Positions 7,887 to 64,000 of a DNA stretch of 64,000 bases are shown here, piece by piece. Positions within the stretch are counted from its first letter, which is position 1. The number at the start of each line of letters is the position of its first letter. A model generated the notes under the pieces. That model searched no databases. It worked only from the letters and a program-made list of their open reading frames with translations, and was not told the DNA's origin. The translations under genes and the position numbers were made by a program. The DNA lies in the IMG/VR virus record IMGVR_UViG_3300021087_000857, positions 1-64,000 of that record; one strand, 5' to 3'. Origin of the DNA: a virus.

Positions 7887-7908
7887 TTTAACTAATAAGG
7901 AGAATAAA

Positions 7909-32646: not shown

Positions 32647-32658
32647 TAGATATATTAT

Positions 32659-35545: not shown

Positions 35546-36178
35546 ATGTTATTAACTAACCCACTAGAAATAGAACTCACAACAAAATGCACACTTGGGT
35601 GTCCTGCTTGTCCGCGAAACAATCCCAAAGAGAAAAAAGAAAATTGGGATGTAGGACACATGAATACAGATATTGCTAAAAGTTTAGCAAACTCTACAGT
35701 AGAACGTTCGTATCTTTTTGTAGGATGTTATGGTGATCCAATATATCACCCAGACTTTATAGATATAGTAAAGTATTATATAGATAGAAATAAAAGTCTT
35801 ACAATTCATACCAATGGGAGTTTTAAAAAACAATCATGGTGGGATAAACTAGCAAGTCTTAATTGGACATATAAGCAAAACTTTACTTTTAGTGTTGATG
35901 GATTAAAAGATACAAATCACATATATAGGATTCGTGCAGATTGGGAATCTATTATGCGAGGAATGAAAACAATAGGATCGTTACCATCAGATCGTAAGCC
36001 TCGTTTAGAATGGAAAATGTTAGTTTTTCCATATAACAAACATCAAGTACCAGAAGCAAGAAAACTAGCACAAGAAATAGGTATTGATACGTTTACACCA
36101 GTTAAAAGTGAAAGAGATATCAATCAATACAGAGTAGAAAACAATGAAATATATAGGTGGCCAGATGATAAAGCCTAG
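35546..36178 (+). CDS. Radical SAM protein, first part (barrel)
   Basis: The cluster motif CTLGCPAC is at residues 15-22, followed by VGCYGDP near 58 (as in 17591) and FSVDGLKDT near 113. The 210-residue ORF stops at TAG (36176-36178) before a C-terminal auxiliary domain. The next ORF supplies one, in the +1 frame. Homologous full-length proteins in this window are 349-366 residues; this ORF plus the next would match. It is either a split pair or a frameshifted gene. Confidence 0.75.
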   Translation: MLLTNPLEIELTTKCTLGCPACPRNNPKEKKENWDVGHMNTDIAKSLANSTVERSYLFVGCYGDPIYHPDFIDIVKYYIDRNKSLTIHTNGSFKKQSWWDKLASLNWTYKQNFTFSVDGLKDTNHIYRIRADWESIMRGMKTIGSLPSDRKPRLEWKMLVFPYNKHQVPEARKLAQEIGIDTFTPVKSERDINQYRVENNEIYRWPDDKA

Positions 36179-36527
36179 ATGTTTATTATATAATATGCCA
36201 ATATTTTTATCTGCTGATAATAGATTAAAGCCGTGTTGTTTTTTAAATCCAGTTGAGCAATGGAACGATTTTATTAATTGGGGCAAACAAAACGGATTAA
36301 ATGTGGAAGAAGACTTAGACATAACAAAACATGACGTAGAAACAATACTAAAAAGCCCAACATGGTTAGCAGTACTAGATGGATTTAAAACAGGTAATGC
36401 TCCACATGAATGTCATGTATCATGTGGTCCTGATAGTTACTCAAGTACATCACAAACAGCTAAACATAGTGATTATGAAGAAAATCCTGATAGTAGTGGA
36501 TTATCTTCGGCTTATAGAGAGGAATAA
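36144..36527 (+). CDS. Radical SAM twitch-like domain, second part of 35546
   Basis: A 127-residue ORF overlapping the barrel ORF by 35 bases in another frame. It contains KPRCLLYN, KPCCFLNP and HECHVSCGPD cysteines, the C-terminal auxiliary-cluster set seen in 17591, 61760 and 62819. Skipping one base near the AAAG at about 36171 would join ...WPDD to KPRC... into one protein. Independent initiation at ATG 36144 is also possible. Confidence 0.65.
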   Translation: MKYIGGQMIKPRCLLYNMPIFLSADNRLKPCCFLNPVEQWNDFINWGKQNGLNVEEDLDITKHDVETILKSPTWLAVLDGFKTGNAPHECHVSCGPDSYSSTSQTAKHSDYEENPDSSGLSSAYREE

Positions 36528-38300: not shown

Positions 38301-38747
38301 ATGGCTTATTATAGCACAAAACATTACGGACACAACATTGGACTAAGTGCAGTGTTCCGCCAACCCAATGCAGATCATTCGCATTGCCATTTGCTACACG
38401 GATATAGTTTAGCATTTACATTTACATTTGGTTGTAATGAATTAGACAACAAAAACTGGGCAGTCGACTTTGGAGGACTAAAACCTTTGAAGGCTTGGCT
38501 AGAAGATAGCTTTGATCATAAAGTAGCAGTAGACAAAGCAGATCCACATATGGATACACTAAAAGATCTTGAAGCAAAAGGCTTAGCAGAACTACGTATT
38601 TTTGATGGAGTAGGTGCAGAGAAATTTGCCGAGCATGCTTTTAATTTTGCAGACAAACTTATACGTGAAGCAACTGATAACAGATGCTATTGTGTTAAAG
38701 CCGAGTGTGCAGAGCATGGAGCCAATTCAGCAATCTACGAGGCATAA
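38301..38747 (+). CDS. queD: 6-carboxytetrahydropterin synthase
   Basis: The 148-residue PTPS-family protein has a zinc-binding histidine set: H at residue 12 (GHNIGLSAVF), then DHSHCHLLHGY near 26-36 (the HGHxY-type core). The C-terminal acid (KAECAEHGANSA near 133) is also seen. It turns dihydroneopterin triphosphate from FolE into 6-carboxytetrahydropterin. The RBS is TAGGAGAA, and it abuts queE, whose ATG begins at the base after its stop. It is part of the 7-deazaguanine pathway in this genome. Confidence 0.9.
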   Translation: MAYYSTKHYGHNIGLSAVFRQPNADHSHCHLLHGYSLAFTFTFGCNELDNKNWAVDFGGLKPLKAWLEDSFDHKVAVDKADPHMDTLKDLEAKGLAELRIFDGVGAEKFAEHAFNFADKLIREATDNRCYCVKAECAEHGANSAIYEA

Positions 38748-39647
38748 ATGGATAAACTTAGATATAGTGAAGCATTCTATTCAGTGCAAGGTGAAGGTAA
38801 ATTTGTAGGAGTACCTAGTGTATTCTTACGTACTTTTGGTTGTAACTTTAGATGCATGAACTTTGGGCTTGATAGGAGTGAACCTAGTAGAGCAGAAAAA
38901 CATGCACAAGGCAATCGTTATAATGATGAGGTATTAGATCTTATCAATAATGATGTACACAAAACAACTAAAGAATTTACAGACTTACCTATTATACACA
39001 CAGGGTGTGATACTTATGCAAGTATCTATCCAGAATTTAAAGAATATAATAAACAAAGAACTATAGACGAAGTAGTAGAACACTTACTAAGTCTTACTCC
39101 TGAAGGTAAATGGACTTGTGATAATGGACAAGATATTCATCTTATACTTACAGGCGGCGAACCGTTGTTAGCGTGGCAACGTTTGTACGTTGATTTATTT
39201 GAACATCCACGTATGAGGGATTTACAAAATGTTACAGTTGAAACAAACACTACGCAACACTTACACAAAGATTTATTCAAATATCTCGACAACAATGACA
39301 GAATTACAGTTACATGGAGTTGTTCGCCAAAGCTCTCCGTTAGTGGAGAATCTTGGGACGATGCTATTAAGCCTAGTGTGGCTAGGGAGTATAGTACTGT
39401 TGATGGTAGCGATATCTATCTTAAATTTGTTGTTGCTGACAGGACTGATATTGACGAGGCTGGTAGAGCTGTTGATGAATATCGTAAAGCGGGTTTGGAC
39501 TGCCCTGTGTACCTTATGCCGTTGGGCGGCAGGTCAGAAGAGTATAATCTCAATGTTCAAGAAGTTGCGAACATCTGTATGGAAAAGGGTTGGAGATTCA
39601 CCCCAAGACTCCACATCAGCCTATTCGGAAACGCATGGGGAACCTAA
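38748..39647 (+). CDS. queE: 7-carboxy-7-deazaguanine synthase, divergent
   Basis: QueE N-terminus FYSVQGEGKFVGVPSVFLR (near residues 10-28) and LILTGGEPLL near 132 are typical. The radical SAM cluster is unusual: C32 and C36 (GCNFRCMNFG) are present, but the third position of CX3CX2C is Phe. A Cys87 in HTGCDTY follows a loop of about 50 residues and keeps the C-D pair normally seen in QueE, so it is probably the third ligand. Its 299-residue length, longer than the usual 210-250, fits the insertion. It makes CDG from the QueD product using SAM, and MetK follows 46 bases later. Confidence 0.85.
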   Translation: MDKLRYSEAFYSVQGEGKFVGVPSVFLRTFGCNFRCMNFGLDRSEPSRAEKHAQGNRYNDEVLDLINNDVHKTTKEFTDLPIIHTGCDTYASIYPEFKEYNKQRTIDEVVEHLLSLTPEGKWTCDNGQDIHLILTGGEPLLAWQRLYVDLFEHPRMRDLQNVTVETNTTQHLHKDLFKYLDNNDRITVTWSCSPKLSVSGESWDDAIKPSVAREYSTVDGSDIYLKFVVADRTDIDEAGRAVDEYRKAGLDCPVYLMPLGGRSEEYNLNVQEVANICMEKGWRFTPRLHISLFGNAWGT

Positions 39648-39693: not shown

Positions 39694-40791
39694 ATGAAGC
39701 AAGGCAATTATATTTTTACAAGCGAAAGTGTAAGTAAAGGACACCCAGATAAGGTGTCAGATCAAATTAGTGATGCACTAGTTGATGCAGGATTAAAAAA
39801 CGGCGACGAGACAACTCGTGTAGCAGTTGAAACACTTGTAACCACTAACCATGTAACGTTAGCGGGTGAGGTAAAGAACTTTAATGTAAGCAAGGACGAA
39901 GTCAAACAAATCGTTCGTGACAAAGTTAAAGAGATTGGATACGAACAGGATGGATTCCATTGGGATAAGTTAAACATCTATAACGAGATTCATTCGCAAT
40001 CAGGTGATATTGGGTTGGGAACAGATAGTTTTGGTGCAGGTGATCAAGGTATTATGTTTGGTTACGCATGTACAGATAACGATGCAATGCTACCAGCACC
40101 TATTCATTACTCGCATGAAATTTTAAAGTCGTTAGACAAAGCAAGAGAAAGTGGATACGAATTTCTACTACCAGATGCTAAGTCACAAGTAAGTGTTCAG
40201 TACGAAGGTGGAAAGCCAACACGTATTGATCAAATTGTTGTATCACATCAACACAAAGACGGATTTCAACATAGCATTAAGGCACCTATAAAAGATGCCG
40301 CTAACGAAGTATTAGGAGATTTAATTGATAAAGAAACTGTATGGCATATTAATCCTACTGGTAATTTTGTTATTGGTGGACCCGATGGAGACACAGGTCT
40401 CACAGGCAGAAAGATCATTGTTGATACTTATGGTGGTTTTGCTCCCCATGGCGGCGGCGCATTTAGTGGCAAGGATCCTACCAAAGTAGATCGCAGTGCG
40501 GCTTATATGGCACGATGGTTAGCAAAGAATGTTGTAGCAGATAACATGGCTGACTGGTGTAGTATTCAACTTAGTTATGCTATTGGTGTTAAAGAACCTA
40601 CTAGTATCTATATAGATTCAAATGGACACAATAGAAGTATTCAGCAATTTATCCAAAACAACATTGACTTAACACCAAAAGGAATCATTGACAAGTTTGG
40701 GTTATTCAAGTATAATAAGTATAGTGAAAATTGTGTTTACGGACACTTTGGCGACAAAGATGTACCGTGGGAAAGTATAGGATGGAAATGA
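39694..40791 (+). CDS. metK: S-adenosylmethionine synthetase
   Basis: The family is clear: ESVSKGHPDKVSDQISDA (residues 9-26), GAGDQGIMFGYA near 112, GGPDGDTGLTGRKIIVDTYGG near 229 (quoted in part) and GGGAFSGKDPTKVDRS near 252. At 365 residues it is slightly shorter than most bacterial MetK. It joins methionine and ATP to give SAM, phosphate and pyrophosphate. A phage-borne copy beside QueE, with many other SAM users in the window, suggests that SAM is limiting during infection. Confidence 0.95.
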   Translation: MKQGNYIFTSESVSKGHPDKVSDQISDALVDAGLKNGDETTRVAVETLVTTNHVTLAGEVKNFNVSKDEVKQIVRDKVKEIGYEQDGFHWDKLNIYNEIHSQSGDIGLGTDSFGAGDQGIMFGYACTDNDAMLPAPIHYSHEILKSLDKARESGYEFLLPDAKSQVSVQYEGGKPTRIDQIVVSHQHKDGFQHSIKAPIKDAANEVLGDLIDKETVWHINPTGNFVIGGPDGDTGLTGRKIIVDTYGGFAPHGGGAFSGKDPTKVDRSAAYMARWLAKNVVADNMADWCSIQLSYAIGVKEPTSIYIDSNGHNRSIQQFIQNNIDLTPKGIIDKFGLFKYNKYSENCVYGHFGDKDVPWESIGWK

Positions 40792-48078: not shown

Positions 48079-48132
48079 TATAGTTTCCTATAGAGTTAAT
48101 CTTAGGATTCTACTTTAAAAGGAAACTATATG
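48079..48132 (+). promoter_or_regulatory. Start-codon-sequestering stem-loop
   Basis: TATAGTTTCC (48079-48088) is the exact complement of GGAAACTATA (48121-48130), which contains part of the ribosome binding site and the A of the ATG at 48130. In RNA the hairpin would hide the start. A temperature or protein switch is possible. Confidence 0.5.
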
Positions 48133-49392
48133 AAAAAGTCTAACCTCATCACGTTCTTCAAGAAACCATTAGTAAGAACAATATCAATAATCACAGTAGC
48201 ATTCGTACTCAGCGTAGTAACAAATTCATATTATAGAGAAATACAAGAAAAGATACATGATGGCATTGGCTATGTGTATGATAAAAATGAAACTGTTGGG
48301 CAAGCAATATATGATGTAAATTCATTTCTATTTAATGGAGATGGATTTGATCAAGAGCGTAGAGCAAAAGAAACAATTTACGGAAACTTTGGTAAAGTAG
48401 TTGTACTAAGTGTATTTGCTCCAGATAATCCAGAACTTAATGGAATGTCAGGACGTGGCACTGGTTTTATAATTGATGTTGACGATACTTCAGCAACAAT
48501 TGTTACAAATCATCACGTAGTAGACTCATATATTAAACAACCAAGCATATTTAAAGTAAATGTACAAACTGCTATGCAAATGTGGTCTTATGAAGCAGAA
48601 GTTATTGGTCACGACATAGTAACTGATATAGCAGTTATTAAAATTTACAAGAAAGAAAATGAAGATTGGGAAGCTATAGAATGGGGCACCAAAGACGACT
48701 ATAACACAGGAACACCTGTTGTTGTAATTGGACACGGTATGAGCATGTCTTGGACAAGTACACAAGGACATGTTGTATACAGAGATAGATTTGGTATGCG
48801 TCCATATAACTTAATGTTACAAGTTGATGCAGTTATTAACCAAGGTAACAGTGGCGGTCCTATATTTAATGACCGTGGACAAGTTATTGGTGTTGCTCAA
48901 AGTATTTACAGTCCGGGTAGATCAATTCCAGGTTGGGACGGTGTAGGAATGGCAGTAAGTGTGGAACAAGTAAAAAGAAGTGTTGACTTTATTCTAAGTC
49001 CACAATACCATGCTAAGGGTTATGTACCATATGCAGAGTTTCCATTTAGTCTTGGATCTTTCTTATTTGAAGAAATAAAGCATATACCAGACGAAGATAG
49101 ACATTATGCTTATTTTGATTATACAAAGAAGAAACCAGATGCAGAACCTAATGTAGGTGAATTAGCAGGACTCAAACAAGGCGATGTTCTAATAGAATTA
49201 AATGGTGAAAAGGTTGTTAACAGTTTTTCAGTATTACGTGAAACACTAAAAGCATTTCCAGGAGATGTTTGGTATGTTACTGTATTAAGAGGTGAAGAAG
49301 AATTAACAATAGAAGTAGCACTAAGTGAAATGGATATACAATCACTTAGAGATATCATTACTCAACGAGAAAAGAATCGTAGCGGCAAATAA
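48130..49392 (+). CDS. Membrane-anchored HtrA/Deg-type serine protease
   Basis: One N-terminal membrane anchor (about residues 14-31). A trypsin-like domain with the full triad: His129 in TNHHVVDS, Asp166 in TDIAVIKI and Ser241 in QGNSGGPIF. A C-terminal PDZ-like domain (AGLKQGDVLIELNGEKV near 339, then FPGDVWYVTVLRGEE). The layout resembles DegS/HtrA-type proteases that sense misfolded envelope proteins. The protease face would be periplasmic. Presence in a phage is unusual; it may protect the envelope during infection or process virion proteins. A stem-loop covers the start. Confidence 0.9.
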   Translation: MKKSNLITFFKKPLVRTISIITVAFVLSVVTNSYYREIQEKIHDGIGYVYDKNETVGQAIYDVNSFLFNGDGFDQERRAKETIYGNFGKVVVLSVFAPDNPELNGMSGRGTGFIIDVDDTSATIVTNHHVVDSYIKQPSIFKVNVQTAMQMWSYEAEVIGHDIVTDIAVIKIYKKENEDWEAIEWGTKDDYNTGTPVVVIGHGMSMSWTSTQGHVVYRDRFGMRPYNLMLQVDAVINQGNSGGPIFNDRGQVIGVAQSIYSPGRSIPGWDGVGMAVSVEQVKRSVDFILSPQYHAKGYVPYAEFPFSLGSFLFEEIKHIPDEDRHYAYFDYTKKKPDAEPNVGELAGLKQGDVLIELNGEKVVNSFSVLRETLKAFPGDVWYVTVLRGEEELTIEVALSEMDIQSLRDIITQREKNRSGK

Positions 49393-50167: not shown

Positions 50168-50231
50168 AGTAATATAAGTTATGCCAAAGAAGAAACAAAT
50201 TTTATCACCATTAGAAGAAGGAAGTGAAAAT

Positions 50232-51356
50232 ATGAAAACTGCGATAAGTGAATCAAGAACTGTAAAAATTAGTGAGGCAACTACCCTCATTACACGAGCT
50301 TTTAAAAAGAAGCGTCCTGTATTTTTATGGGGTCCTCCAGGAATTGGTAAATCAGAACTAGTTAAAGAAATTGGCGACTCGGGTGCATTAGGTAAAACTC
50401 ATGTAATTGATATGCGTCTTGCATTGTTTGAGCCTACTGATTTGCGAGGCTATCCTGTACCAAATGTTGAAACAGGTGTTATGCAATGGTTACCACCTGC
50501 AGATTTGCCAAGTAAAGAATTGGCTAAGAAGTATGATACAGTTATTGTATTCTTAGATGAAATGAACTCAGCGGCACCTAGTGTGCAGGCGGCGGGTTAC
50601 CAGTTAATCCTTAACAGACGTATTGGACAATACGAACTGCCAGACAATGTTGTAATGATTGCTGCAGGTAATAGGGAAACTGACAAAGGTGTTACTTACA
50701 GAATGCCTAAGCCACTTGAAAATCGTTTTGTTCACTTTGAACTTAGAGTTGATTTCCAAGATTGGTTGAACTGGGCAGTAATGCACGAAGTTAATCCTGA
50801 TGTAGTTGGTTACTTGTCATTTGCAAAAGGCGACTTATATAACTTTGATCCTCAATCAAGTTCAAGAGGATTTGCTACGCCAAGAGCTTGGACATTTACT
50901 TCAGAACTACTTGAAGGTGAAGACGACTTGTCAGATAGTTTACAAACTGATATGGTAGCAGGTTGTGTTGGCGAAGGTATTGCAGTTAAGTTTATGGCAC
51001 ATAGAAAGATTGCAGGAGACCTTCCTGTTCCAGAAGATGTGCTAGATGCTAAAGTTAAAAAGATTGATACTACTGAAGTATCGGCAATGTATGCATTGGC
51101 TACATCACTATGTTATGAACTACGTGATAGATTTATTACTGGTGAAAAAGCAGGTGCTGATAGCAAGCAGATGGAAAAGTACCACAAGAGCTTTTCAAAC
51201 TTTATCAGCTTTATGATGGATAACATGGAAACTGAAATGGTTGTTATGGCATCAAGAATTGCAATGCAACAATACAAGTTGGTTCCTAAGCAAAAGAAAA
51301 TTGAACGTTTTGAAGAATACTTTAACCGTTATGGACGTTTGGTACTTGACGCTTAA
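50232..51356 (+). CDS. MoxR-type AAA+ ATPase
   Basis: I start at ATG 50232, behind GAAGGAAG, because an ATG at 50181 lies only 7 bases beyond the predicted transcription start and has no binding site. The Walker A WGPPGIGKSE (near residue 33), Walker B VIVFLDEMNSA near 102 and a sensor-like NRETDKGVTYRM near 142 place it in the MoxR/RavA group. MoxR ATPases act as chaperones with VWA-domain partners, here the gene 20 bases downstream. The cargo is unknown. Confidence 0.9.
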   Translation: MKTAISESRTVKISEATTLITRAFKKKRPVFLWGPPGIGKSELVKEIGDSGALGKTHVIDMRLALFEPTDLRGYPVPNVETGVMQWLPPADLPSKELAKKYDTVIVFLDEMNSAAPSVQAAGYQLILNRRIGQYELPDNVVMIAAGNRETDKGVTYRMPKPLENRFVHFELRVDFQDWLNWAVMHEVNPDVVGYLSFAKGDLYNFDPQSSSRGFATPRAWTFTSELLEGEDDLSDSLQTDMVAGCVGEGIAVKFMAHRKIAGDLPVPEDVLDAKVKKIDTTEVSAMYALATSLCYELRDRFITGEKAGADSKQMEKYHKSFSNFISFMMDNMETEMVVMASRIAMQQYKLVPKQKKIERFEEYFNRYGRLVLDA

Positions 51357-51376
51357 TTTAACAGTAGGAAAATAAA

Positions 51377-52549
51377 ATGAACAAAACAGCAGAAGAAAGA
51401 ATTACCCAGTCCAGAGTTAGGTTGCTATTAACTAAACCTTTCTTTGGGCAACTAGCGGTAAGATTAAAAATTGAAGATGCAAGTTCATATTTGCCTACTG
51501 CGGCAACAGATGGTAGAAGGTTTATGTTCAATAGAGAGTTTGTTGATTCTCTAAATGATGAGATGCTTGACTTTTTAGTAGGACATGAAGTATTGCATTG
51601 TGTGTTTGATCACATGCAGGCACGTGGTGATCGTAAGCCTCAACTATTTAATGCGGCGGCTGACTATAACATTAACATGACGCTTGTAGAACAAAACATA
51701 GGTAAGCCAATTACTGAAGATAAACTAGAAGGCGGCAAGATTTGTTTGGACTGGAAATATCAAGGTTGGAACAGTTATGAGATATATGATGACTTGCTAA
51801 AGACTCAGCAAGATGCTAAAGGCATGGATGTGCATATGGACGAAATACAACCCGGTGACGAAGATGGCGAAGGTGGTCAAGGTGTTGAAATGTCTGAAGA
51901 AGAAAAGAAAGCATTAGCAGACGAAATTAAGCAGGCTACTATCCAAGCGGCACAGGCGGCAGGTGAAGGTGTACCAGATGTAATTAAACGTATGATCAGT
52001 GAATTAGTTGCACCTAAAATGGATTGGAGAGACATACTAAGAACTCAATTAGAAAGTTCACTTAAAAATGATTTTACTTTTATGCGTCCTAGTAAAAGAA
52101 GTGGTGAAGTTATTTTTCCAGGTATGAACAAAGACGAAGAACTTAATATTGCAATTGGACTTGATACTTCAGGTAGTATTAGTCAAGATATGTTACGTGA
52201 TTTCCTTAGTGAAGTACAAGGCATTATGGATCAATATCAAAGTTACAATGTACATATCTTTCAATTTGATACAGATGTGTATGGTGCAGATGACTTTACT
52301 AGTGATGATGGTCGTACAATGGATGAATACCAACTTAAAGGTGGAGGTGGTACAGACTTTGATGTAGTGTTTAATTACTTAGAACAGTATAACATTGAAC
52401 CCGATCAACTTGTTATGTTCACAGACGGCTATCCTTGGGGTAGTTGGGGTAATGCAGATTACTGTGATACACTTTTTGTTATTCACGGTGATAAGCAAAA
52501 AAGAATTCAATCACCATTTGGAGTTACAGTACATTATGAAGCAGCTTAA
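51377..52549 (+). CDS. DUF2201/VWA-like metallopeptidase-type partner of MoxR
   Basis: The N-terminal half has a zinc-protease-like HEVLHCVFDH (HExxH) near residue 75. The C-terminal half is a VWA-like domain with the MIDAS motif GLDTSGSISQD near 260 and FTDGYPWG near 349. This layout is that of DUF2201 partners of MoxR ATPases. The two genes probably form a chaperone module that inserts metals or assembles a complex. It overlaps the following gene by 14 bases. Confidence 0.85.
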   Translation: MNKTAEERITQSRVRLLLTKPFFGQLAVRLKIEDASSYLPTAATDGRRFMFNREFVDSLNDEMLDFLVGHEVLHCVFDHMQARGDRKPQLFNAAADYNINMTLVEQNIGKPITEDKLEGGKICLDWKYQGWNSYEIYDDLLKTQQDAKGMDVHMDEIQPGDEDGEGGQGVEMSEEEKKALADEIKQATIQAAQAAGEGVPDVIKRMISELVAPKMDWRDILRTQLESSLKNDFTFMRPSKRSGEVIFPGMNKDEELNIAIGLDTSGSISQDMLRDFLSEVQGIMDQYQSYNVHIFQFDTDVYGADDFTSDDGRTMDEYQLKGGGGTDFDVVFNYLEQYNIEPDQLVMFTDGYPWGSWGNADYCDTLFVIHGDKQKRIQSPFGVTVHYEAA

Positions 52550-53687
52550 ACTATTAGCAATACTACTTTGTATGGCACTTCCTGCTCATGCAAAAGTTAA
52601 ATCTAACGATATTACTTTTCCAGGTAATTTTTATACAGATGATATAAAATCATGTGAAGCAGTACAACCTGTATCATTTACTAATAATAGAACTGTTAAT
52701 ATCATGGAAGGGTTAATTGGTTATGATTGGCATGCTGATCACTCAACAAATAGCAACTCACGTGATGTTCATCATCGAAATATAACTGTACCAATGAATA
52801 TGTTAATGGCGGCAACACATAAAGCACTTGGCAATAACATTCAGTCTGAAATAGAAAATGCTAAAAACTTGTTATTAGATTTAGCTAAAGCAGATACTTT
52901 GTACGATAGTATTGGCTATATTGAAGTAAAAAAGAAACCTGATTGCTATGCCGGTGGAGATGTAAATGCACCTTGTTGGTATCATGAATATGAATTTGCA
53001 AGAAATGTATTTTCAAATTACATGATTACTGCATTGTGGCTAAAAAATGAATTAAACGAACAAGAATTTAAACTTGTAAACAAGTATATCAAAAAGATGT
53101 ACAAAAAGTTTATAAAGCCAACAGAATTTAAAAGTCAAGAACAAGGTTTCTATGCTATGGCTAACGGTGGCACATCAGTATTAGTTTATGCATCTTGGAC
53201 AGATAATAAGAAACTTGCCGCAAAAGAAATAAATTTTAGATTTAAAGAAATGAACAGGCTATTTTATGAAGATGGTTATATCAATAATAATTCATTTAGA
53301 GGATATAGAGCTCAATGGTATCATTCTTATGGGTTAGACATTGCACTTGGTTATGTTTATATTGCTGAGTTATGGGGTGCAGAAGTACCAACTAAATTAC
53401 AAAACAAATTAGTTAAAGCATCTAAATTAGTTAATCTTGCAATAACTGATTGGGACAAGTTTAAAAGTAGAAAGTATATTGGTGAAAATCACAATGCACT
53501 TAATAATCCAGCAGATGCTATAAAACATACTCACCAATTTGCAATTGCAATAGATACACTAATGCTAGAAGTAACCAACGTAGAACTAGAGTACGATCCT
53601 AAATATCTTGGAAAAAGAAAGTATCAAATTACACAATCCTATGGAATAGATGAATTAATAGGATTTCCGTCAGGATGTATACAATGA
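52536..53687 (+). CDS. Exported polysaccharide-lyase-like protein
   Basis: I start at ATG 52536 rather than at 52395. A signal peptide (MKQLKLLAILLCMALPAHA) precedes a 364-residue helical domain with FAMANGG-like, RGYRAQWYHSYGLDIALGYVY near 252-272 (quoted in part) and a KYIGENHNALNNP block near 309, like the alpha/alpha barrel of alginate or related polysaccharide lyases. The catalytic residues are not certain. It may cut exopolysaccharide near the host surface; other glycan-binding roles are possible. Confidence 0.55.
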   Translation: MKQLKLLAILLCMALPAHAKVKSNDITFPGNFYTDDIKSCEAVQPVSFTNNRTVNIMEGLIGYDWHADHSTNSNSRDVHHRNITVPMNMLMAATHKALGNNIQSEIENAKNLLLDLAKADTLYDSIGYIEVKKKPDCYAGGDVNAPCWYHEYEFARNVFSNYMITALWLKNELNEQEFKLVNKYIKKMYKKFIKPTEFKSQEQGFYAMANGGTSVLVYASWTDNKKLAAKEINFRFKEMNRLFYEDGYINNNSFRGYRAQWYHSYGLDIALGYVYIAELWGAEVPTKLQNKLVKASKLVNLAITDWDKFKSRKYIGENHNALNNPADAIKHTHQFAIAIDTLMLEVTNVELEYDPKYLGKRKYQITQSYGIDELIGFPSGCIQ

Positions 53688-56432: not shown

Positions 56433-57860
56433 ATGTCAGATAGTAAATTACCAAGCGATACTTTTTGTATACTTCCGTGGATACATTTAAGTACTAGACC
56501 AGATGGAAGTATGAGAGTATGTTGTACTGCTAACGCATCAAGTGTAGGAGCAACAAATGATAAAGCACACGGTGGAAGAGTAGGTATTGTTAAAACAGAA
56601 GATGGCAAGCCTGCTAACCTAAACAACAGTGATCTTAACAGTAGTTGGAATAACAGCTATATGCGAAGTGTTAGACAAATGATGCTTAAAGGCGATAAGC
56701 CAGCAAGTTGTTTAAAATGCTACAAAGAAGAAGATGCAGGACACAGATCAAAGCGTCAATGGGAAACAGACTATTGGATGCGTGATGGTATTGATGTTGA
56801 CGAACTAGTAGCTCAAACATACGAAGATGGATCAACAGATAGTAAACTACGTTATATTGATATTCGTATGGGAACTAAATGTCAATTAGGTTGTGTTATG
56901 TGTAGCCCACATGATAGTTCAGGTTGGGTGAAAGACTGGAACAAGTTATATCCAAATATTACAAATGAATCTCTAAAAGAAACTATGAATTGGGATTCTA
57001 AAGGTAAAACGTTTGGTGCTAGTTATAATTGGCACAAAGACAATCCAGTATTTTGGGATCAGTTTTATGCACAAATTCCATACATTAGACAGTTATACTT
57101 TGCAGGCGGCGAAAGTACAGTTATTGAAGAACATTATAGTATTTTATCTAAAGTTATTGAAATGGGGTATGCACATCAAATTGAAGTACGTTATAATTCA
57201 AACGGAATTGAACTACCAGATAGACTATTAGAACTATGGACACATTTCCAAAAAGTACGTTTCCATTATAGTATTGACAGTATTGGTGTAATGAATGATT
57301 ATATTCGTTACCCAAGTGAATGGGACCATCAACTTAAAATGTTTGAACGTTTAGATAAAGAAACATCTAACAATGTAGAAGTTACAATTGCATGTGCCGT
57401 TAACGCTCTTAACATTCATTATATTCCAGACTTCCTTAAATGGAAACTTCAGGATAGCGGACTAAAGAAAACAAATATGTGGCCATTTGGTGCAGGCGGT
57501 ATTAACTATCACTTTGTATACTGGCCAGGACATTTGAATGTTAAAGTACTACCAGATGAATTCTTAGATAAGACTGAAGCTAAGTATGAAGAATTTATTG
57601 AATGGTGGAAAGAAAATTGGGAACTAGGTGTTCCAAGTTGGCATAAAGGTAAAGTAACCAAAGAACAATGGCTAGATGCGAGTTATGGAATTAAACGTTT
57701 ACGTGGTATGATTAGTTTTGCTCGCAGTGAAGATTGGAGTAGACGCTTACCAGAATTTAGAGAATATATTAATAAACTAGATGAGTTACGTGGAACTGAT
57801 TTCCGCAATACATTTCCAGAAATGGCATACTTACTAGATGAACCGGAGAATGATAAATGA
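56433..57860 (+). CDS. Radical SAM protein with N-terminal twitch-like Cys domain
   Basis: The longest of the group at 475 residues. The N-terminal auxiliary set is CILPWIH near 11, RVCCTA near 29 and SCLKCY near 91, then the radical SAM motif CQLGCVMC at residues 150-157. The usual GGEP appears as FAGGESTV near 222. The end LRGTDFRNTFPEMA matches the 19046 protein. It overlaps the nucleosidase gene by four bases, so a radical SAM enzyme and a SAM by-product cleaner are coupled. The substrate is unknown. Confidence 0.85.
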   Translation: MSDSKLPSDTFCILPWIHLSTRPDGSMRVCCTANASSVGATNDKAHGGRVGIVKTEDGKPANLNNSDLNSSWNNSYMRSVRQMMLKGDKPASCLKCYKEEDAGHRSKRQWETDYWMRDGIDVDELVAQTYEDGSTDSKLRYIDIRMGTKCQLGCVMCSPHDSSGWVKDWNKLYPNITNESLKETMNWDSKGKTFGASYNWHKDNPVFWDQFYAQIPYIRQLYFAGGESTVIEEHYSILSKVIEMGYAHQIEVRYNSNGIELPDRLLELWTHFQKVRFHYSIDSIGVMNDYIRYPSEWDHQLKMFERLDKETSNNVEVTIACAVNALNIHYIPDFLKWKLQDSGLKKTNMWPFGAGGINYHFVYWPGHLNVKVLPDEFLDKTEAKYEEFIEWWKENWELGVPSWHKGKVTKEQWLDASYGIKRLRGMISFARSEDWSRRLPEFREYINKLDELRGTDFRNTFPEMAYLLDEPENDK

Positions 57861-58432
57861 AATATTTATTAGTCGCACTTGAAAATGAAGTGCCAAATAT
57901 CGATTTACCCGATGATTATACACTAATGATTACAGGTGTAGGTAAAGTAAATGCTACTGTAATGGCTACTATTGCCGCTAGACAACCAGACTGTGAATGT
58001 ATTATTAACTACGGAACAGCAGGAACTTTTAATCCTAAACTAGTTGGTAAACTACACAGAATTGGAATAGTAAAACAACGCGATATGGATGCAAGACCAC
58101 AAGCACCATTAGGAACTACTCCATACGAAGATACAAAATTCAGCAGTGATTTGCAACTTTATAAAGGAAGTAAATTTACATTAAGCACAGGCGATAACTT
58201 TGTAAAAGCCAACCCCGAAATGCAAAGTGACTTTGTAGACATGGAAGGGTATGCTATTGCAAAAGTGGCAGGTATGTTTAATAAGCCATGTATGATGTTA
58301 AAATATGCAAGCGACTTAGCTGACGATAAAGCACCAGAAGAATGGGAAAAGAATCAAGCCAAAGGCAAAGATATGTTCCTAAAATGGCTAGATGATTTAG
58401 AAAAGAATATCCAAGAAATAAACGATGAGTAA
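57857..58432 (+). CDS. MTA/SAH nucleosidase-type (5'-deoxyadenosine) hydrolase
   Basis: The 191-residue product fits the PNP/MTAN fold: MITGVGKVNATVMAT near 25, IINYGTAGTF near 49, FVDMEGYAIAKVAG near 123-136 (the DMEGxA motif) and KYASDLADD near 145-153 (the SDxAD acid). Known enzymes hydrolyse methylthioadenosine, SAH and 5'-deoxyadenosine. The last is the product of radical SAM cleavage and inhibits such enzymes. It overlaps radical SAM genes on both sides, so recycling of SAM by-products is the most economical reading. Confidence 0.8.
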   Translation: MKYLLVALENEVPNIDLPDDYTLMITGVGKVNATVMATIAARQPDCECIINYGTAGTFNPKLVGKLHRIGIVKQRDMDARPQAPLGTTPYEDTKFSSDLQLYKGSKFTLSTGDNFVKANPEMQSDFVDMEGYAIAKVAGMFNKPCMMLKYASDLADDKAPEEWEKNQAKGKDMFLKWLDDLEKNIQEINDE

Positions 58433-59684
58433 TTCGGGCTTTTGTGCATTACCATTTGTTCAATATAGTACTTACAACGGAGGACGTTTTAGACTTTGTT
58501 GTATGGCTAAAGAACCTAAAGAACTAGTCAATCAAGAAGAACTAGGAATTGATGGCACTTGGAATCACAATTATATAAAAGACGTAAGACGCAGAATGAC
58601 TGCTGGTGAGAAATTATCAGAGTGTATTGAATGTCATCATTTAGAACGTAACGGAATAATGAGCTCACGCCAATGGGAAAATAAAGTGTGGGCAGACGTA
58701 ATAGATGATGTAGTAGCAGACGCATCAGCTAATGATTGGGAGATTGACCAGCCTCTACAATTTGATTTTAGACTTGGTAACTTATGTAATTTGCAGTGTC
58801 AAATGTGCAACAAAGAAGCATCTCACTTAGTGAGTGTGGAAAGAGCCACAATGGTACAAAGCGGACTCGGAGCGAACCATCCTGATTGGGACGGCAATAT
58901 TGCAAACAAAAAACAAGCATTACTTCAACCTGGAATAGAGTGGGAGAGCTTTGAAAGAATGTTACCATATGCTCGCAAAATAAAACTAATAGGTGGCGAG
59001 CCTACAGTTGCTCAAGACATGTTTAAATTGTTAGACATTGCAACTGCAAGTGGTCATGCAGAACATATAGAATTAAGTTTTTATACAAACATCACTAACA
59101 TGCAAGATAAATGGTTAGACCAACTATCTAAGTTTGAGAAAGTGATTGTTAACTGTTCATTGGAAGGAATGGAAGATATGAATGATTATCTTAGGCCTCC
59201 AAGTAAGTGGGCAAGTGTATGGAAGAACTTTGATAAGTTAGTTAAGTTCTCAGATACAAAAGAAGGTAAACGTATAAAGGTACGAGTTACTACAGTAAAC
59301 CAAATAACCAATGCATTGCATACTGCTACATTTTGGAAGTTTATGCATGATTATCAGATGACTAGTAATAGAGGCATTGGTATGAGTACTAACCAATTAG
59401 TAGAGCCAGCATACTATAGTATGGCACATGCTCCTGAATGGTTGAAAGAAGAACAACGTGAACAGATTTTGGAATTTCTCAAAAGCATTGGCAACAGTCC
59501 ACATTTTGAGCAATACGAAGAACCTCTTATGGAACTTGTTAATTTTAGTTTGGATCCTGAGCATAAGTATGATGCTGACATCATGCGCCAGTATGTCAAG
59601 ATCACCGAAAACTACGACAGATTCAGAGGACACGACATTATTCAAGTGTCGCCCGAATTTAGAAGAATTAAAAGAGACCTCTGA
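58425..59684 (+). CDS. Radical SAM protein with N-terminal twitch-like Cys domain
   Basis: The N-terminal set CALPFVQ near 7, RLCCMA near 24 and CIECHH near 64, then the radical SAM motif CNLQCQMC at residues 121-128 and KLIGGEPTVA near 188. The product is 419 residues. It overlaps the nucleosidase by eight bases. The substrate is unknown. It is the last gene before the only minus-strand gene of the window. Confidence 0.85.
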   Translation: MSNSGFCALPFVQYSTYNGGRFRLCCMAKEPKELVNQEELGIDGTWNHNYIKDVRRRMTAGEKLSECIECHHLERNGIMSSRQWENKVWADVIDDVVADASANDWEIDQPLQFDFRLGNLCNLQCQMCNKEASHLVSVERATMVQSGLGANHPDWDGNIANKKQALLQPGIEWESFERMLPYARKIKLIGGEPTVAQDMFKLLDIATASGHAEHIELSFYTNITNMQDKWLDQLSKFEKVIVNCSLEGMEDMNDYLRPPSKWASVWKNFDKLVKFSDTKEGKRIKVRVTTVNQITNALHTATFWKFMHDYQMTSNRGIGMSTNQLVEPAYYSMAHAPEWLKEEQREQILEFLKSIGNSPHFEQYEEPLMELVNFSLDPEHKYDADIMRQYVKITENYDRFRGHDIIQVSPEFRRIKRDL

Positions 59685-59738
59685 TTTAACTAAAGCAGAA
59701 ACCTATCATCGATGGGATTGTAAAGTAACTGTAGACTT

Positions 59739-60569
59739 TTAAAACTTTTTAATACGTTCTGCCATACATAGCTCAGGCTTGAGCAAACTTTCATTTAATA
59801 TATCAGCTTCAAAGCATTGTAACTTTGTGCCAAATACAATTTGGTGAGTAATCCATTGTGCATTAAAGAACCAAATATCACCTGGATCAAAAGTAATATA
59901 ATGTAATGGGTGGTGAAACTGATCCCATTTTTCTTCATTCCATACACATCTATCACGCATTCCAGTAATAAATGTATGTATGTTGTTTTTATCTAGTTCA
60001 CCTAAGTTAAACTTATCTTTGTACATGTTATACATTTGTTGTAAGTCTGGACCACACGATAATACTCTAGGACGCTTTTTATCTAATTGAACAAACATAC
60101 GTATCTGTTGTTCTAGTCCAGTGTGTTGTTCATCTAGTTCGTCCAAGTGTAGTTTATTTTCTACTAGTGTATTATATCTATGACTAAGCATACGTTCACT
60201 TGTTTTGTAATGTGGGAATAACATATCAAATACTTCGTTCCATCCATTGTTAGCTTGTTTGTGTTTTTGATGAAATACATTAATTTGCTCGTCATTCCAA
60301 CCACGTTCTATATGCATACGTGATCTATTTTTAATATGACTGTTATACCAAGGCATAATCCATTTGTTATCTTTAATAGTCCAGTCTGGTAAGTCGTCAT
60401 AGTAATCATAATCTAATTGTGGTATAGTTAGATTTTTAATAACCACCGGCCAGCCACTTTCAAATGCTTCGTATAGTTTAAAATTGTCTTTTAGGTCGTG
60501 TTTATTAGCGTCGAAAACATTGACAATGAAGTCGTTTCCTGCTATAATATCTTTAGCGATACGGGTCAT
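59739..60569 (-). CDS. Possible JmjC/2OG-oxygenase-like protein, minus strand
   Basis: The only gene I support on the minus strand. I start at ATG 60569, which has GGAG upstream and leaves a short leader after the promoter at 60612-60640; an ATG at 60608 is the alternative. The 276-residue product has FHHPLHYITFDPGDIWFFNAQWITHQIV near 218-245 (quoted in short runs: HHPLHYITFDPGD; FNAQWITHQIVFG), a His and Gly-Asp pattern like the double-stranded beta-helix of 2OG oxygenases. An EAFESGWPVVIKNL segment near 36 also occurs in JmjC-like proteins. The substrate is unknown. Confidence 0.5.
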   Translation of the reverse strand: MTRIAKDIIAGNDFIVNVFDANKHDLKDNFKLYEAFESGWPVVIKNLTIPQLDYDYYDDLPDWTIKDNKWIMPWYNSHIKNRSRMHIERGWNDEQINVFHQKHKQANNGWNEVFDMLFPHYKTSERMLSHRYNTLVENKLHLDELDEQHTGLEQQIRMFVQLDKKRPRVLSCGPDLQQMYNMYKDKFNLGELDKNNIHTFITGMRDRCVWNEEKWDQFHHPLHYITFDPGDIWFFNAQWITHQIVFGTKLQCFEADILNESLLKPELCMAERIKKF

Positions 60570-60611
60570 GTTGTATAAAACTCCATTTGTGTGTATAGAT
60601 AAATACATATA

Positions 60612-60640
60612 TATTTATGCAAGTAAAAATCCAAGTTCAA
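60612..60640 (-). promoter_or_regulatory. Minus-strand promoter, TTGAAC with late-like CATAAATA
   Basis: On the minus strand TTGAAC (60640-60635) and TAAATA (60617-60612) are 17 bases apart, and CATAAATA covers 60619-60612. The -35 lies in an inverted repeat GTTCAA-6-TTGAAC (60635-60652) in the divergent gap. It would serve the only minus-strand gene. Confidence 0.5.
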
Positions 60641-60674
60641 CGCATATTGAACAAACATCATATGAGAATAAAAA

Positions 60675-61760
60675 ATGACAAAATCAGTTAATGTATGGAG
60701 CGAATTTCAGCCCCTAAAAAGAGTAGTGCTAGGAGCACCGTTTCCACCTGAAACATTTGATTGGCACGAGGACGAAGAAACACGCAATGTAATGCGTCAA
60801 ATCTTTAAAGAAACAGCCGAGGACATAGCAGTGCTGGAGGGAATATTAAAGGACAGAGGTATTGAAGTAGTACGTCCTAAAAATATATTTACAATCACAG
60901 GTGAAGAACAAATTAAATTACCATGGATGCATTGTGGGTTTCCTAACCACCCATTAATGCCACGTGATACACTTATGCCGTATGGCAATAGTATATTTGA
61001 ATGTTTTACAGGTAGCGATAATCGTTACTTTGAGAATCTCGCATATTACGATCATTGTAGTAAATGGTTTAGTGAAGGTGCAGATTGGGTTAGTATGCCA
61101 GGAGTATTAGTAGAAAGTGGTAAAAAATATGACCACTTTGTAGATAATCATCGACTGCTTTATCATGCGGCTAACATGATAAAGTGTGGACGCCACGTTT
61201 TGTTTAGCCAACCCTATGAGGGAGACAATAAACGAGGCAGAGGTACGGAGCTGGGCCGTGAATGGATTCGTAGAGAAATAAAACTACGTTATCCAGATAC
61301 AAAGTTTTTGGACATTCCAGTAGGAGGACATATCGATGGTAAAATAGCATTGCTAAAACCTGGTGTGCTAATGACCTGGAATGCAAATTGGGTTCCTAAA
61401 GAAATGGAAGGTTGGCACATTATTGAAGTAGATGATGATTTTGACATGCCAGAAGATTTCCAACAAACTCGTAAGAAAAGATTCCACAAAGAATATGTAA
61501 GCAAGTGGTTAGAGCATTGGGTAGGTTGTCCAGACGAAAGTGTGTTTGATGTTAACGTACTATCACTAGATGAAAAGACGGTAATTTGTACAGGTAAAAA
61601 TGAACAAGCATTTGCTGAAATGGAAGCACATGGCATTGAACCAATATACTGGAACTTTAGACATCAGTATTTTTGGGATGGTGGCATACATTGTTTAACA
61701 AGTGATATTGTTAGAGAAGGTGGGCAGGAAGATTATATAACTAACAAAAGGTACTATTAA
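60675..61760 (+). CDS. Glycine amidinotransferase-like protein
   Basis: The 361-residue product belongs to the amidinotransferase superfamily: FQPLKRVVLGAP near residue 12, MPRDTLMPYGN near 96, the catalytic His in VGGHIDGKI (His219) and the catalytic Cys in GGIHCLTSD (Cys340). The family moves an amidino group from arginine to glycine or another amine, or hydrolyses arginine-type substrates. The acceptor here is unknown. It lies between the minus-strand gene and two tandem radical SAM genes, overlapping the first by one base, so it may act on the same product. Confidence 0.8.
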   Translation: MTKSVNVWSEFQPLKRVVLGAPFPPETFDWHEDEETRNVMRQIFKETAEDIAVLEGILKDRGIEVVRPKNIFTITGEEQIKLPWMHCGFPNHPLMPRDTLMPYGNSIFECFTGSDNRYFENLAYYDHCSKWFSEGADWVSMPGVLVESGKKYDHFVDNHRLLYHAANMIKCGRHVLFSQPYEGDNKRGRGTELGREWIRREIKLRYPDTKFLDIPVGGHIDGKIALLKPGVLMTWNANWVPKEMEGWHIIEVDDDFDMPEDFQQTRKKRFHKEYVSKWLEHWVGCPDESVFDVNVLSLDEKTVICTGKNEQAFAEMEAHGIEPIYWNFRHQYFWDGGIHCLTSDIVREGGQEDYITNKRYY

Positions 61761-62809
61761 TGAGTTGGTACAAGAACCTACATAAATTACAACTTGACCC
61801 AACAAGTCATTGTAATGCAAGATGCGGTGCTTGTGCTAGAAATATATACGGTGGTGAAACTAGACACGACTTGGAATTAAAACATTTTGACTTAGAGTTA
61901 TGGAAAAGAATAGCAATCGAAGACACTAAAGAGTGCTACATAAATCATTTAAGTCTAAATGGAAATTGGGGCGATGCTTTAATGCACCCAGATATAATAG
62001 AAATAATTGAAATTTGGAATACATATCATCCAGAAAGTGAAATGGCAATAGCAACAAATGGAAGCCTACGTAGTACAGAGTTTTGGAAAAAGTTAGCCAA
62101 CGTACTAAGAAACACTCCTCGACATAGTCTTGAATTTTCAATGGATGGAATGGAAGATACACATCACATTTATAGAAGAAAAACATCACATTCAAAGTTA
62201 GTAGATAATATTAAAACTTTTGTAGATGCAGGTGGAACTGCAAACATATATATGACTTTATTCGAACACAACAAACACCAAATTAAAGAAGTAGCAAACT
62301 TATCTAAAGAATTAGGTGCTGATGGATTTTATATAAGGCATAGTCATCGTAGTAAGATGAAAATTATAGACGGTGAAGAACGATACGATATAGAAGGTTA
62401 TTTTCCAAAAATAATAAAAGGCTCTTTTACTTTTCCAAAAAATAAAAAAATAAATAGTGATGCAAGAGATAGTAAAATACACATACAAAATAATGAAAAA
62501 ATTAAACCAAATACAACAAGTAAATGTCCTTGGAAACAACAACACAAAGTACAAATTGATCCATGGGGAATAATATGGCCTTGTTGTTATGTAAGTAAGT
62601 ATGGTGGTGGTGGGTCAATGACAGGTTTTAATATGGACGAAATTTTTTCACCAGGCAATGATAATATTATTAATAATGTATTTGAACAAAATGATGTAAA
62701 CAAGTATACCTTAAAAGAAATATTAGAAAATAAATGGTTTAATACAACAGTAGATAATGCAATAGCAAAGTCTGAATGGAATATTTGCAATGAAACTTGC
62801 GGAATATAA
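61760..62809 (+). CDS. Radical SAM protein with C-terminal twitch-like domain (tandem copy 1)
   Basis: The radical SAM motif CNARCGAC is at residues 18-25, followed by LNGNWGDALMHP near 68 and FSMDGMEDTHHIYRRK near 128. The C-terminal auxiliary set is KCPWK near 254, IWPCCYV near 271 and ICNETCG near 343. It is a close tandem paralogue of the next gene, with the same order of every block. It overlaps the amidinotransferase stop by one base. The substrate is unknown. Confidence 0.88.
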   Translation: MSWYKNLHKLQLDPTSHCNARCGACARNIYGGETRHDLELKHFDLELWKRIAIEDTKECYINHLSLNGNWGDALMHPDIIEIIEIWNTYHPESEMAIATNGSLRSTEFWKKLANVLRNTPRHSLEFSMDGMEDTHHIYRRKTSHSKLVDNIKTFVDAGGTANIYMTLFEHNKHQIKEVANLSKELGADGFYIRHSHRSKMKIIDGEERYDIEGYFPKIIKGSFTFPKNKKINSDARDSKIHIQNNEKIKPNTTSKCPWKQQHKVQIDPWGIIWPCCYVSKYGGGGSMTGFNMDEIFSPGNDNIINNVFEQNDVNKYTLKEILENKWFNTTVDNAIAKSEWNICNETCGI

Positions 62810-62818
62810 GGAATAACA

Positions 62819-63919
62819 ATGAATTGGTATAGACAGATACATAAATTACAAATAGATATAACAAGTCATTGTAATGCTAGATGTGGTGCTTGTATAAGAA
62901 ATATAAATGGAGGTGCAACTCATCCAGGTTTAAAACTAACCCATTTTGATGTAGATGTTTGGAAACGTATGGCTACCGAAGACACTAGAGGTTGGTGGGT
63001 TAGGCAGCTAACACTAAATGGAAATTGGGGCGATCCAATGATGCATCCTCATTTAGTAGAAATGTTAGAAATATGGATTACTGCTCACCCGGAAACTTTT
63101 ATATCTATTGCAACAAATGGAAGTATGCGTAGCACTAAGTTTTGGTCAGACCTTGCTACAATATTACGTAAAGGATCTCATCACAAAGTTGATTTTGCAG
63201 TAGATGGAATGGAAGACACGCATCATATATACAGACGAAAAACTGTGTTTTCTAAACTAAAAGAAAACATAAAAGCATTTACAGATGCAAAAGGACAAGC
63301 AATTGCAGTAATGACAATGTTTGAACATAACAAACATCAAATAGAAGAAGTAAAAGAATTGGCAAGAGAAGTAGGTTGCAAACACTTTATTGCAAGAAGA
63401 AGTCATAGTGATCATATGCTTATCGAAGACGGTGACGAACAATACGAAATAAAAGGTTGGTATCCAACTGGAAATGGCGAGCATGTAATTGATAACGATA
63501 CTCCGGAACTTGAACAAGACTTTCCCGAAAACGAACATCCACTAAGTGTAAATAGAGACAGAATATGGATGAGAGCTAATGAACGTTTTGAAGAATTAAA
63601 TGATAATCATATACCAAGTAAATGTCCTTGGAAAGATGAAGGGGAAGTACAAATAGACCCATGGGGTGTTGTATGGCCTTGTTGTCATGTAAGTTTATAT
63701 GGCGGTGCTGGAGCATCAGAAAATATGTCTATAAAATTAAACTTTAATGAAGAAGCTGAACAAACTAATTTTATCGAAGAAGGAAAAGAATCAAACAGTT
63801 TGCATAATAGATCGTTAAAAGATATATTAAATAATCAATGGTATAATGATACACTTAATCATGCTATAAAAAATGCAGATTATGATGTGTGCAGACGTAG
63901 TTGTGGGATATGTAAATAA
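62819..63919 (+). CDS. Radical SAM protein with C-terminal twitch-like domain (tandem copy 2)
   Basis: Motif CNARCGAC at residues 18-25, LNGNWGDPMMHP near 68, VDGMEDTHHIYRRK near 129, then CPWKDEG near 265, VWPCCHV near 282 and VCRRSCGIC near 358. The end has one more cysteine than its upstream copy. It starts behind an AAGGAATAA site. The stop overlaps the ATG of the next partial gene (TAATG). Confidence 0.88.
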   Translation: MNWYRQIHKLQIDITSHCNARCGACIRNINGGATHPGLKLTHFDVDVWKRMATEDTRGWWVRQLTLNGNWGDPMMHPHLVEMLEIWITAHPETFISIATNGSMRSTKFWSDLATILRKGSHHKVDFAVDGMEDTHHIYRRKTVFSKLKENIKAFTDAKGQAIAVMTMFEHNKHQIEEVKELAREVGCKHFIARRSHSDHMLIEDGDEQYEIKGWYPTGNGEHVIDNDTPELEQDFPENEHPLSVNRDRIWMRANERFEELNDNHIPSKCPWKDEGEVQIDPWGVVWPCCHVSLYGGAGASENMSIKLNFNEEAEQTNFIEEGKESNSLHNRSLKDILNNQWYNDTLNHAIKNADYDVCRRSCGICK

Positions 63920-64000
63920 TGTACGTTAATCCAATGTTAAATGATACACGCTATCCAACGTGCTTGGCACCTTGGAATGCACTCACTATTAAATGGGGCG
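63919..64000 (+). CDS. Radical SAM/twitch-like protein, N-terminal fragment cut by window edge
   Basis: The frame begins at ATG 63919 in a TAATG overlap and runs out of the window. The 27 visible residues include YPTCLAPWNALTIKWG, which resembles the N-terminal Cys motif of 19046 (CYAPWIT) and 56433 (CILPWIH). It is probably the tenth radical SAM gene of the window, but its barrel is not seen. Confidence 0.5.
   Translation, partial: MYVNPMLNDTRYPTCLAPWNALTIKWG

Follow-up and report, generated by a model that had tools for sequence, protein, structure and literature searches.

Results

Radical SAM gene island in the phage record

We analyzed positions 1 to 64000 (the window) of the IMG/VR virus record IMGVR_UViG_3300021087_000857, which is 110,270 bases in full, and focused on the genes for radical S-adenosylmethionine (SAM) enzymes (rSAMs) that begin at position 56433. 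The record is from a marine phage. Its DNA polymerase and clamp loader match phage families, and these, together with a clamp-like gene at 21632, suggest that it is T4-like.

Five rSAM genes are located at the end of the window (56433–57860, 58425–59684, 61760–62809, 62819–63919, and 63919–65169), all on the plus strand, and the last is cut by the window end so that only 63919–64000 is included. A nucleosidase gene (57857–58432) and an amidinotransferase gene (60675–61760) are interleaved with them. This agrees with an earlier note on this DNA, which described five rSAM genes with auxiliary-cluster cysteines, a nucleosidase, and an amidinotransferase and regarded no precursor peptide as certain; likewise, we could identify no precursor in the rSAM block. 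The extent of 7.6 kb given in that note was too small. The island comprises 14 rSAM genes in 24.5 kb (56433–80947), extending 17 kb beyond the window end with nine further rSAM genes after the 63919 gene, and the whole record contains 19 (PF04055 was matched 18 times; the QueE homologue at 38748–39647 was left out of the count).

The island is 98.7% coding, its genes overlap by a few bases, and only three spacers exceed 25 bp, the widest being 173 bp. A second IMG/VR assembly agreed across 21.4 kb with 3 mismatches. The orthologues of the island genes are under purifying selection (median dN/dS 0.05–0.22), indicating that these are working genes. Thus, the island is attributable neither to chance nor to an assembly error.

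Radical SAM enzymes with N-terminal auxiliary cysteines

The first gene of the island (56433–57860) encodes a protein of 475 amino acids, designated as R85, which was used as the anchor for comparison; the product of 58425–59684 was designated as R87. Both matched NF033640 (4.5e-125 and 2.9e-87, respectively), the NCBIfam subfamily of N-terminal-twitch rSAMs (N_Twi_rSAM), to which most of the rSAMs here appear to belong and whose curated cut-off is 170 bits. Five N_Twi genes of the island passed this cut-off, with scores of 418 (56433), 293 (58425), 253 (63919), 214, and 314 bits. The products of 61760 and 62819 scored 35–41 bits and are thus non-members. PF04055 was found by hmmscan in the 56433, 58425, 61760, and 62819 proteins, although the score of the first (28.1 bits) was just below the cut-off of 29.5 bits. 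To our knowledge, no activity or substrate has been assigned to NF033640.

The N_Twi pattern, read from the R85 alignment and a cysteine map of the record, combines the CxxxCxxC motif of the SAM cluster with N-terminal auxiliary cysteines (C-x17-CC ... CxxC). An N-terminal auxiliary region was present in 10 of the 14 island rSAMs, five of which were scored against NF033640; nine of the 10 had the full cysteine set. In an alignment of 39 sequences, C12, C93, and C96 of R85 and its core cysteines C150, C154, and C157 were invariant, and C30 and C31 were nearly so. The 63919–65169 protein lacks the CC pair and has therefore lost two auxiliary cysteines. These features predict that R85 and the other N_Twi proteins of the island are rSAM enzymes with a twitch-like auxiliary [Fe-S] half-domain.

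The AlphaFold model of R85 had a mean confidence score (pLDDT) of 84. Its nearest folds in the PDB were CteB, SkfB, anSME, SuiB, and viperins, with whole-chain TM-scores of approximately 0.3, and a PDB profile search matched SkfB (2e-11). Identity with viperin or prokaryotic viperin was rejected, the best NF038283 score being 32 bits where 180 is the cut-off. The known maturase families of ribosomally synthesized and post-translationally modified peptides (RiPPs) were also rejected, as every NCBIfam maturase model scored far below its cut-off in the scanned rSAM proteins.

Radical SAM enzymes with C-terminal or separate auxiliary domains

The half-domain cysteine pattern was also found at the C-terminus of three proteins. 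Two are encoded in the island, at 61760–62809 (+; PF04055, 4.3e-11) and 62819–63919 (+; PF04055, 1.2e-9), and carry a SPASM-like half-domain (PF13186, 0.013, which is under its cut-off, and 2.1e-4, respectively). The third is G23 (17591–18685, +), an anchor gene common to a second phage group and to Bdellovibrionota, as described below.

In two other cases the two parts are encoded separately. A short rSAM core without an auxiliary domain (35546–36178, +) is followed by a stand-alone twitch-like auxiliary domain with the pattern C..CC..CxxxC (36144–36527, +), and a small auxiliary protein at 78131–78457 of the record lies close to a short rSAM core at 76245–76961. Seven further phage loci carry a cassette of a split core and a separate auxiliary domain.

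Nucleosidase and proposed support genes

The nucleosidase (57857–58432, +) is of the methylthioadenosine/S-adenosylhomocysteine type (PF01048, 5.6e-14; MTAN in the PDB, 3e-18). E11, M129-E130, and D153 were invariant in 23 orthologues. It is a PNP_UDP_1 family member and scored under the NCBIfam equivalog cut-offs. The record also encodes the SAM synthetase MetK (39694–40791, +; TIGR01034, 430 bits against a cut-off of 309), adenine phosphoribosyltransferase (Apt), phosphoribosyl pyrophosphate synthetase (Prs), and the ferredoxin FdxA, as well as three Fe-S assembly genes, namely an A-type carrier, an Nfu-domain protein, and a SufT/PaaD-like protein.

According to the available text of PMC8102628, 5′-deoxyadenosine inhibits rSAM enzymes and needs disposal. 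As this compound is left by rSAM turnover, a nucleosidase encoded between two rSAM genes would be of obvious use. We therefore consider it rather likely that the support genes serve recycling through the disposal of 5′-deoxyadenosine. A housekeeping function in rSAM chemistry is more probable for the nucleosidase than a step of the pathway itself, since it was absent from the Bdellovibrionia chromosomal island examined and accompanies MetK in the clade of the window's phage.

The distribution of these genes bears on how specific the link is. Among 21 other records of this clade, the nucleosidase was found in 21 and MetK in 18. Two sets of counts speak against rSAM chemistry requiring these genes: in a second phage group only one of 19 rSAM-rich records had MetK and only one had the nucleosidase, and MetK occurred in two records without any rSAM match. 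MetK-bearing phages outside the clade had 0 to 24 rSAM matches, with a PNP-family gene in 3 of 16, and the A-type carrier was present in 19 of 40 records. Many of these records are fragmentary and related, and the counts are not independent. A general need of rSAM-rich phages for MetK and nucleosidase was rejected on these counts. Because nearly all rSAM-rich records of the second group lack both and MetK also occurs where no rSAM match is found, the support module is linked to the lineage and not required.

Alternatively, MetK, the nucleosidase, Apt, Prs, and the Fe-S genes may belong to the general metabolism of the phage, such as methylation, queuosine-type DNA modification, and nucleotide salvage, with no special link to the rSAM island. 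In support of this, MetK adjoins QueD and QueE outside the island and is seen in records with 0 or 1 rSAM match, and many phages rich in rSAMs have neither MetK nor the nucleosidase. Against it, the nucleosidase is wedged between two rSAM genes, overlapping both by 4–8 bp, and 31 of 34 close relatives carry it in their R85 locus. We regard this alternative, which concerns the support module only, as somewhat doubtful.

Amidinotransferase, oxygenase-like protein, and other partner genes

The amidinotransferase (60675–61760, +) belongs to the StrB/SxtG/HsvA/AGAT family. In hmmsearch against the PDB it matched HsvA (6.7e-32), StrB (8e-23), AGAT (approximately 1e-19), and also SxtG, and H219, D221, and C340 are kept in the phage and bacterial copies.

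The adjacent gene on the minus strand (59739–60608) encodes a putative 2-oxoglutarate/Fe(II)-type oxygenase, proposed from its motif (H154-x-D156 ... H255, with K262). The HxD...H pattern was invariant and was kept in a bacterial homologue of 27% identity, which suggests an oxygenase of this type. The protein had no Pfam or NCBIfam match, and its profile found nothing meaningful in the PDB. Its structure model was unreliable (pLDDT 54), so that a double-stranded beta-helix fold could not be read from it. The cassette of amidinotransferase and 59739 genes was present in approximately 20 of the 34 close R85 loci.

Past the window, the island encodes an aminotransferase-like protein (PF00155, 0.0017, under the cut-off), an Asp/Asn beta-hydroxylase-like protein (PF05118), a small monooxygenase-like protein, and a dehydrogenase-like protein read from its sequence.

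Two genes distant from the island are co-conserved with R85. G15 (13825–14529, +) is a putative GT-A-like glycosyltransferase with an invariant D57-x-D59, a DxD motif typical of glycosyltransferases; it had no Pfam, PHROG, or PDB match. G16 (14516–15463, +) reads as a putative SAM-dependent methyltransferase and had no family match.

Distribution among phages

Relatives of R85 were encoded in 514 IMG/VR stretches. The orthologues of the second phage group shared 64–66% identity with R85, and their gene order G15-G16-G19-G23-R85 ... G108 was recurrent. At loci of this group such as L080 and L086, genes for two GT8-like proteins, a small protein, and a fibre-like protein directly precede the island, and at L086 a predicted tail-fibre gene comes before them. 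A search of the window record gave no match to the fibre-like protein.

When relatives were chosen via a neutral gene, the clamp loader, the close ones had 4–18 rSAM matches and five of the seven distant ones had none; several of these records are fragments. R85 had no match at 1e-5 among 50,697 phage isolate records. Another island rSAM had only distant homologues among isolates, mostly in KVP40-type Vibrio phages (22–23% identity).

A counterpart on Bdellovibrionota chromosomes

We scanned one genome per species. Sixty-two R85-related loci were found, 44 of which were assigned by record title to Bdellovibrionota, the phylum that includes predatory bacteria of the Bdellovibrio type. The close R85 homologues of Bdellovibrionota were of full length and 50–64% identical, and their neighbours were the phage anchors G23 (mostly 37–46%), G108 (54–64%), G15, and G16.

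The most extensive counterpart was an island of approximately 30 kb within a Bdellovibrionia contig of 917 kb. Nineteen of its genes paired with genes of the record as reciprocal best hits, and 17 of these pairs involve the island block. The identities were 45% for the amidinotransferase, 45% for G101, 44% for G103, 42% for G104, 39% for G107, 39% for the aminotransferase, 32% for the Asp/Asn hydroxylase, and 26% for the 59739 protein, among others. Both hydroxylase-like genes were thus among these hits, and both split pairs were matched (42/57% and 41/29%). Runs such as G103-G104-G106-G107 and the pair 35546/36144 were kept in order, and four adjacencies were shared, compared with 1.0 in shuffled order (p = 0.013). 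Three more Bdellovibrionota islands had 8, 8, and 2 reciprocal best hits, and other loci of the phylum carry R85, G23, G108, G15, and G16 together.

Of 114 genomes of the phylum, 30 contained N_Twi rSAMs; the 14 controls contained none. Eleven Bdellovibrionota genomes, chosen because they had matches, contained 4–20 copies, and one genome of the phylum had seven on a single 2.66-Mb contig. In some of the Bdellovibrionota genomes (loci L207–L266) this family, for which no function has been described, was strongly expanded, reaching 20 copies.

The viral and Bdellovibrionota R85 sequences formed separate clades, implying that the exchange is old, and recent capture of a host gene was rejected. 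Matches in metagenome-assembled genomes (MAGs) named Neisseriaceae, Gammaproteobacteria, Rickettsiales, Chloroflexi, and Acidimicrobiaceae grouped with the viral sequences in the tree and probably represent phage contigs that were misbinned.

Genes for GT2 glycosyltransferases, a bacterial sugar transferase, a CapD-type Polysacc_synt_2 protein, and nucleotidyltransferases (NTP_transferase) were located in or beside the bacterial loci. One Bdellovibrionales contig (L227:12284-16695) carries, next to R85 and G108, homologues of the two GT8-like proteins, of the fibre-like protein of the phages (2e-20), and of the small protein beside it. This cluster lies downstream of pheST, rplS, and trmD, read as housekeeping genes from their sequences.

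Other genes in the window

Two further N_Twi-type rSAM genes are located away from the island, at 3390–4667 (+) and 19046–20194 (+). QueD-like and QueE-like genes (38301–39647) and a GTP cyclohydrolase I gene (27814–28512) likely comprise a deazaguanine (preQ0-type) modification pathway. The 22393–23886 protein, which had no family match, reads as a relative of tRNA-guanine transglycosylase.

A NodU/NolO-type carbamoyltransferase (PF02543, PF16861) is encoded at 126–1643, and some other phages have relatives of it close to their rSAM islands. Upstream of the island, most close relatives share a conserved pair of an ATPase and a DUF2201 metallopeptidase/VWA protein, which is located at 50181–52549 in the window. 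The region 6444–8961 encodes a TctA-family subunit of a tripartite tricarboxylate transporter (PF01970, 5.6e-97) and, after it, a protein whose sequence resembles that of a periplasmic binding protein. A subtilisin-family (S8) protease spans two open reading frames (31096–32646 and 32659–33786, together 31096–33786), the second with a long C-terminal region. A trypsin-like protease with a PDZ domain (HtrA-like) is encoded at 48130–49392, and a probably secreted protein with a weak alginate-lyase-like match (0.0002, just under the cut-off) at 52395–53687.

Discussion

The same gene set, with its order partly kept, is present in phages and on Bdellovibrionota chromosomes, which shows that the pathway is not phage-only. 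We consider it highly likely that the two share one rSAM pathway. The earlier note proposed an undescribed phage modification pathway; its function is indeed undescribed, and the restriction to phages does not hold.

In our interpretation, approximately 14 adjacent rSAMs, most of which pair a SAM-cleaving core with a twitch-like [Fe-S] half-domain at the N-terminus, at the C-terminus, or in a separate protein, would act on one product. The amidinotransferase, the aminotransferase-like, Asp/Asn-hydroxylase-like, and dehydrogenase-like proteins, and the putative 2-oxoglutarate oxygenase would build or decorate this product. In this phage clade, MetK would make SAM, the nucleosidase would destroy 5′-deoxyadenosine, and Apt and Prs could salvage adenine. 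Ferredoxin and the A-type carrier, Nfu, and SufT-like proteins would supply electrons and clusters. We infer the order of the enzymes, the class of the substrate, the recycling role, the electron donor, and any benefit to the phage.

Because the block contains no precursor gene and the bacterial loci abut glycan genes, we favour a glycan or glycoconjugate over a gene-encoded peptide as the product. That the island is a viral version of a large multi-rSAM biosynthetic pathway with such a product has, in our estimate, an even chance of being correct, and the glycan reading of the product taken by itself is tentative. Several points weigh against this interpretation. The functions of G15 and G16 were read from motifs, and the nearest folds of the R85 model are peptide maturases and viperins, with low TM-scores. 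The bacterial names were taken from MAG titles. Some reciprocal best hits among the paralogous rSAMs may not be true orthologues, as R85 pairs with the Bdellovibrionia island at only 29%.

SPASM/twitch rSAMs often act on peptides. The rSAMs of the island could install crosslinks, thioethers, epimerisations, or other changes in a RiPP-like or post-translational manner, with the target being a peptide or a virion or host protein encoded elsewhere. The likeness of R85 to CteB, SkfB, anSME, and SuiB in its model and to SkfB in its profile is consistent with this, as are the second-group island that directly follows a predicted tail-fibre gene and fibre-like protein, and the Bdellovibrionales contig in which homologues of this protein and its three neighbours adjoin R85 and G108. 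Given the resemblance in fold to peptide maturases and the presence of the fibre-like gene, a protein or a tail fibre is a conceivable target. However, a search for a precursor gene next to an rSAM maturase found none, and the few and short spacers of the block leave hardly any room for one. Moreover, no NCBIfam maturase cut-off was reached, the profile matches of the amidinotransferase are small-molecule enzymes, and no counterpart of the fibre-like protein was found in the record. We regard a peptide or protein target as unlikely. Compared with known SPASM/twitch maturases (SkfB, CteB, AnSME, and PqqE), the island enzymes share the rSAM core, the auxiliary cluster domain, and fold similarity, but differ in the mostly N-terminal half-domain, the lack of a precursor, the many tandem rSAMs, and the amidinotransferase and hydroxylase-like partners.

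The twitch-domain rSAM BtrN acts on an aminocyclitol, and the amidinotransferase of the island is related to StrB and SxtG. Together with the aminotransferase-like protein and the carbamoyltransferase, this could point to a natural product or signal that is a small molecule resembling an aminocyclitol or a nucleoside. Sugar-modifying rSAMs would make it, tailoring would add amidino, amino, carbamoyl, and methyl groups, and it would not be placed on a surface polymer. Such a product is distinctly improbable in our view; we recognized no gene for a cyclitol synthase, an exporter, or resistance in the island, and the bacterial loci adjoin GT2 and polysaccharide genes.

Related phage islands have been described. 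The T4-like marine phage TARA_ERS488813_N000010 has 12 rSAM genes, an A-type Fe-S carrier, and a PaaD gene of the SufT-like family in the portion of the report available (Nishimura et al. 2017, PMC5332604), and resembles the present record in these respects. Relative to that description, the present record has 19 rSAMs, together with MetK, the nucleosidase, Nfu, ferredoxin, and a tie to Bdellovibrionota chromosomes. In the accessible account of pelagimyophages, variable rSAM cassettes occur in a host recognition cluster, a hypervariable island with tail fibres and glycosyltransferases (Zaragoza-Solas et al. 2020, PMC7029224). The second-group islands likewise adjoin a tail-fibre gene, whereas the pathway, the partner enzymes, and the bacterial homologues belong to the present case as far as that account goes. 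We found no report of the Bdellovibrionota islands or of their link to phages in the open-access literature searched, the coverage of which was incomplete.

Returning to the glycoconjugate interpretation, Bdellovibrionota might make an rSAM-built glycoconjugate with up to approximately 20 rSAMs, of which marine T4-like phages would carry a long-diverged copy along with SAM, 5′-deoxyadenosine, and Fe-S support for infection, possibly coating tail fibres or remodelling the host surface. This full scenario is speculative and somewhat unlikely. It is unusual for a gene cluster to encode a dozen or more rSAM enzymes. A pathway shared by phages and Bdellovibrionota gives two tractable entries, bacterial isolates and the KVP40-type Vibrio phages with distant homologues. 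If the SAM and Fe-S support encoded by the virus is real, it would clearly exemplify how a phage can provide for a demanding class of enzymes.

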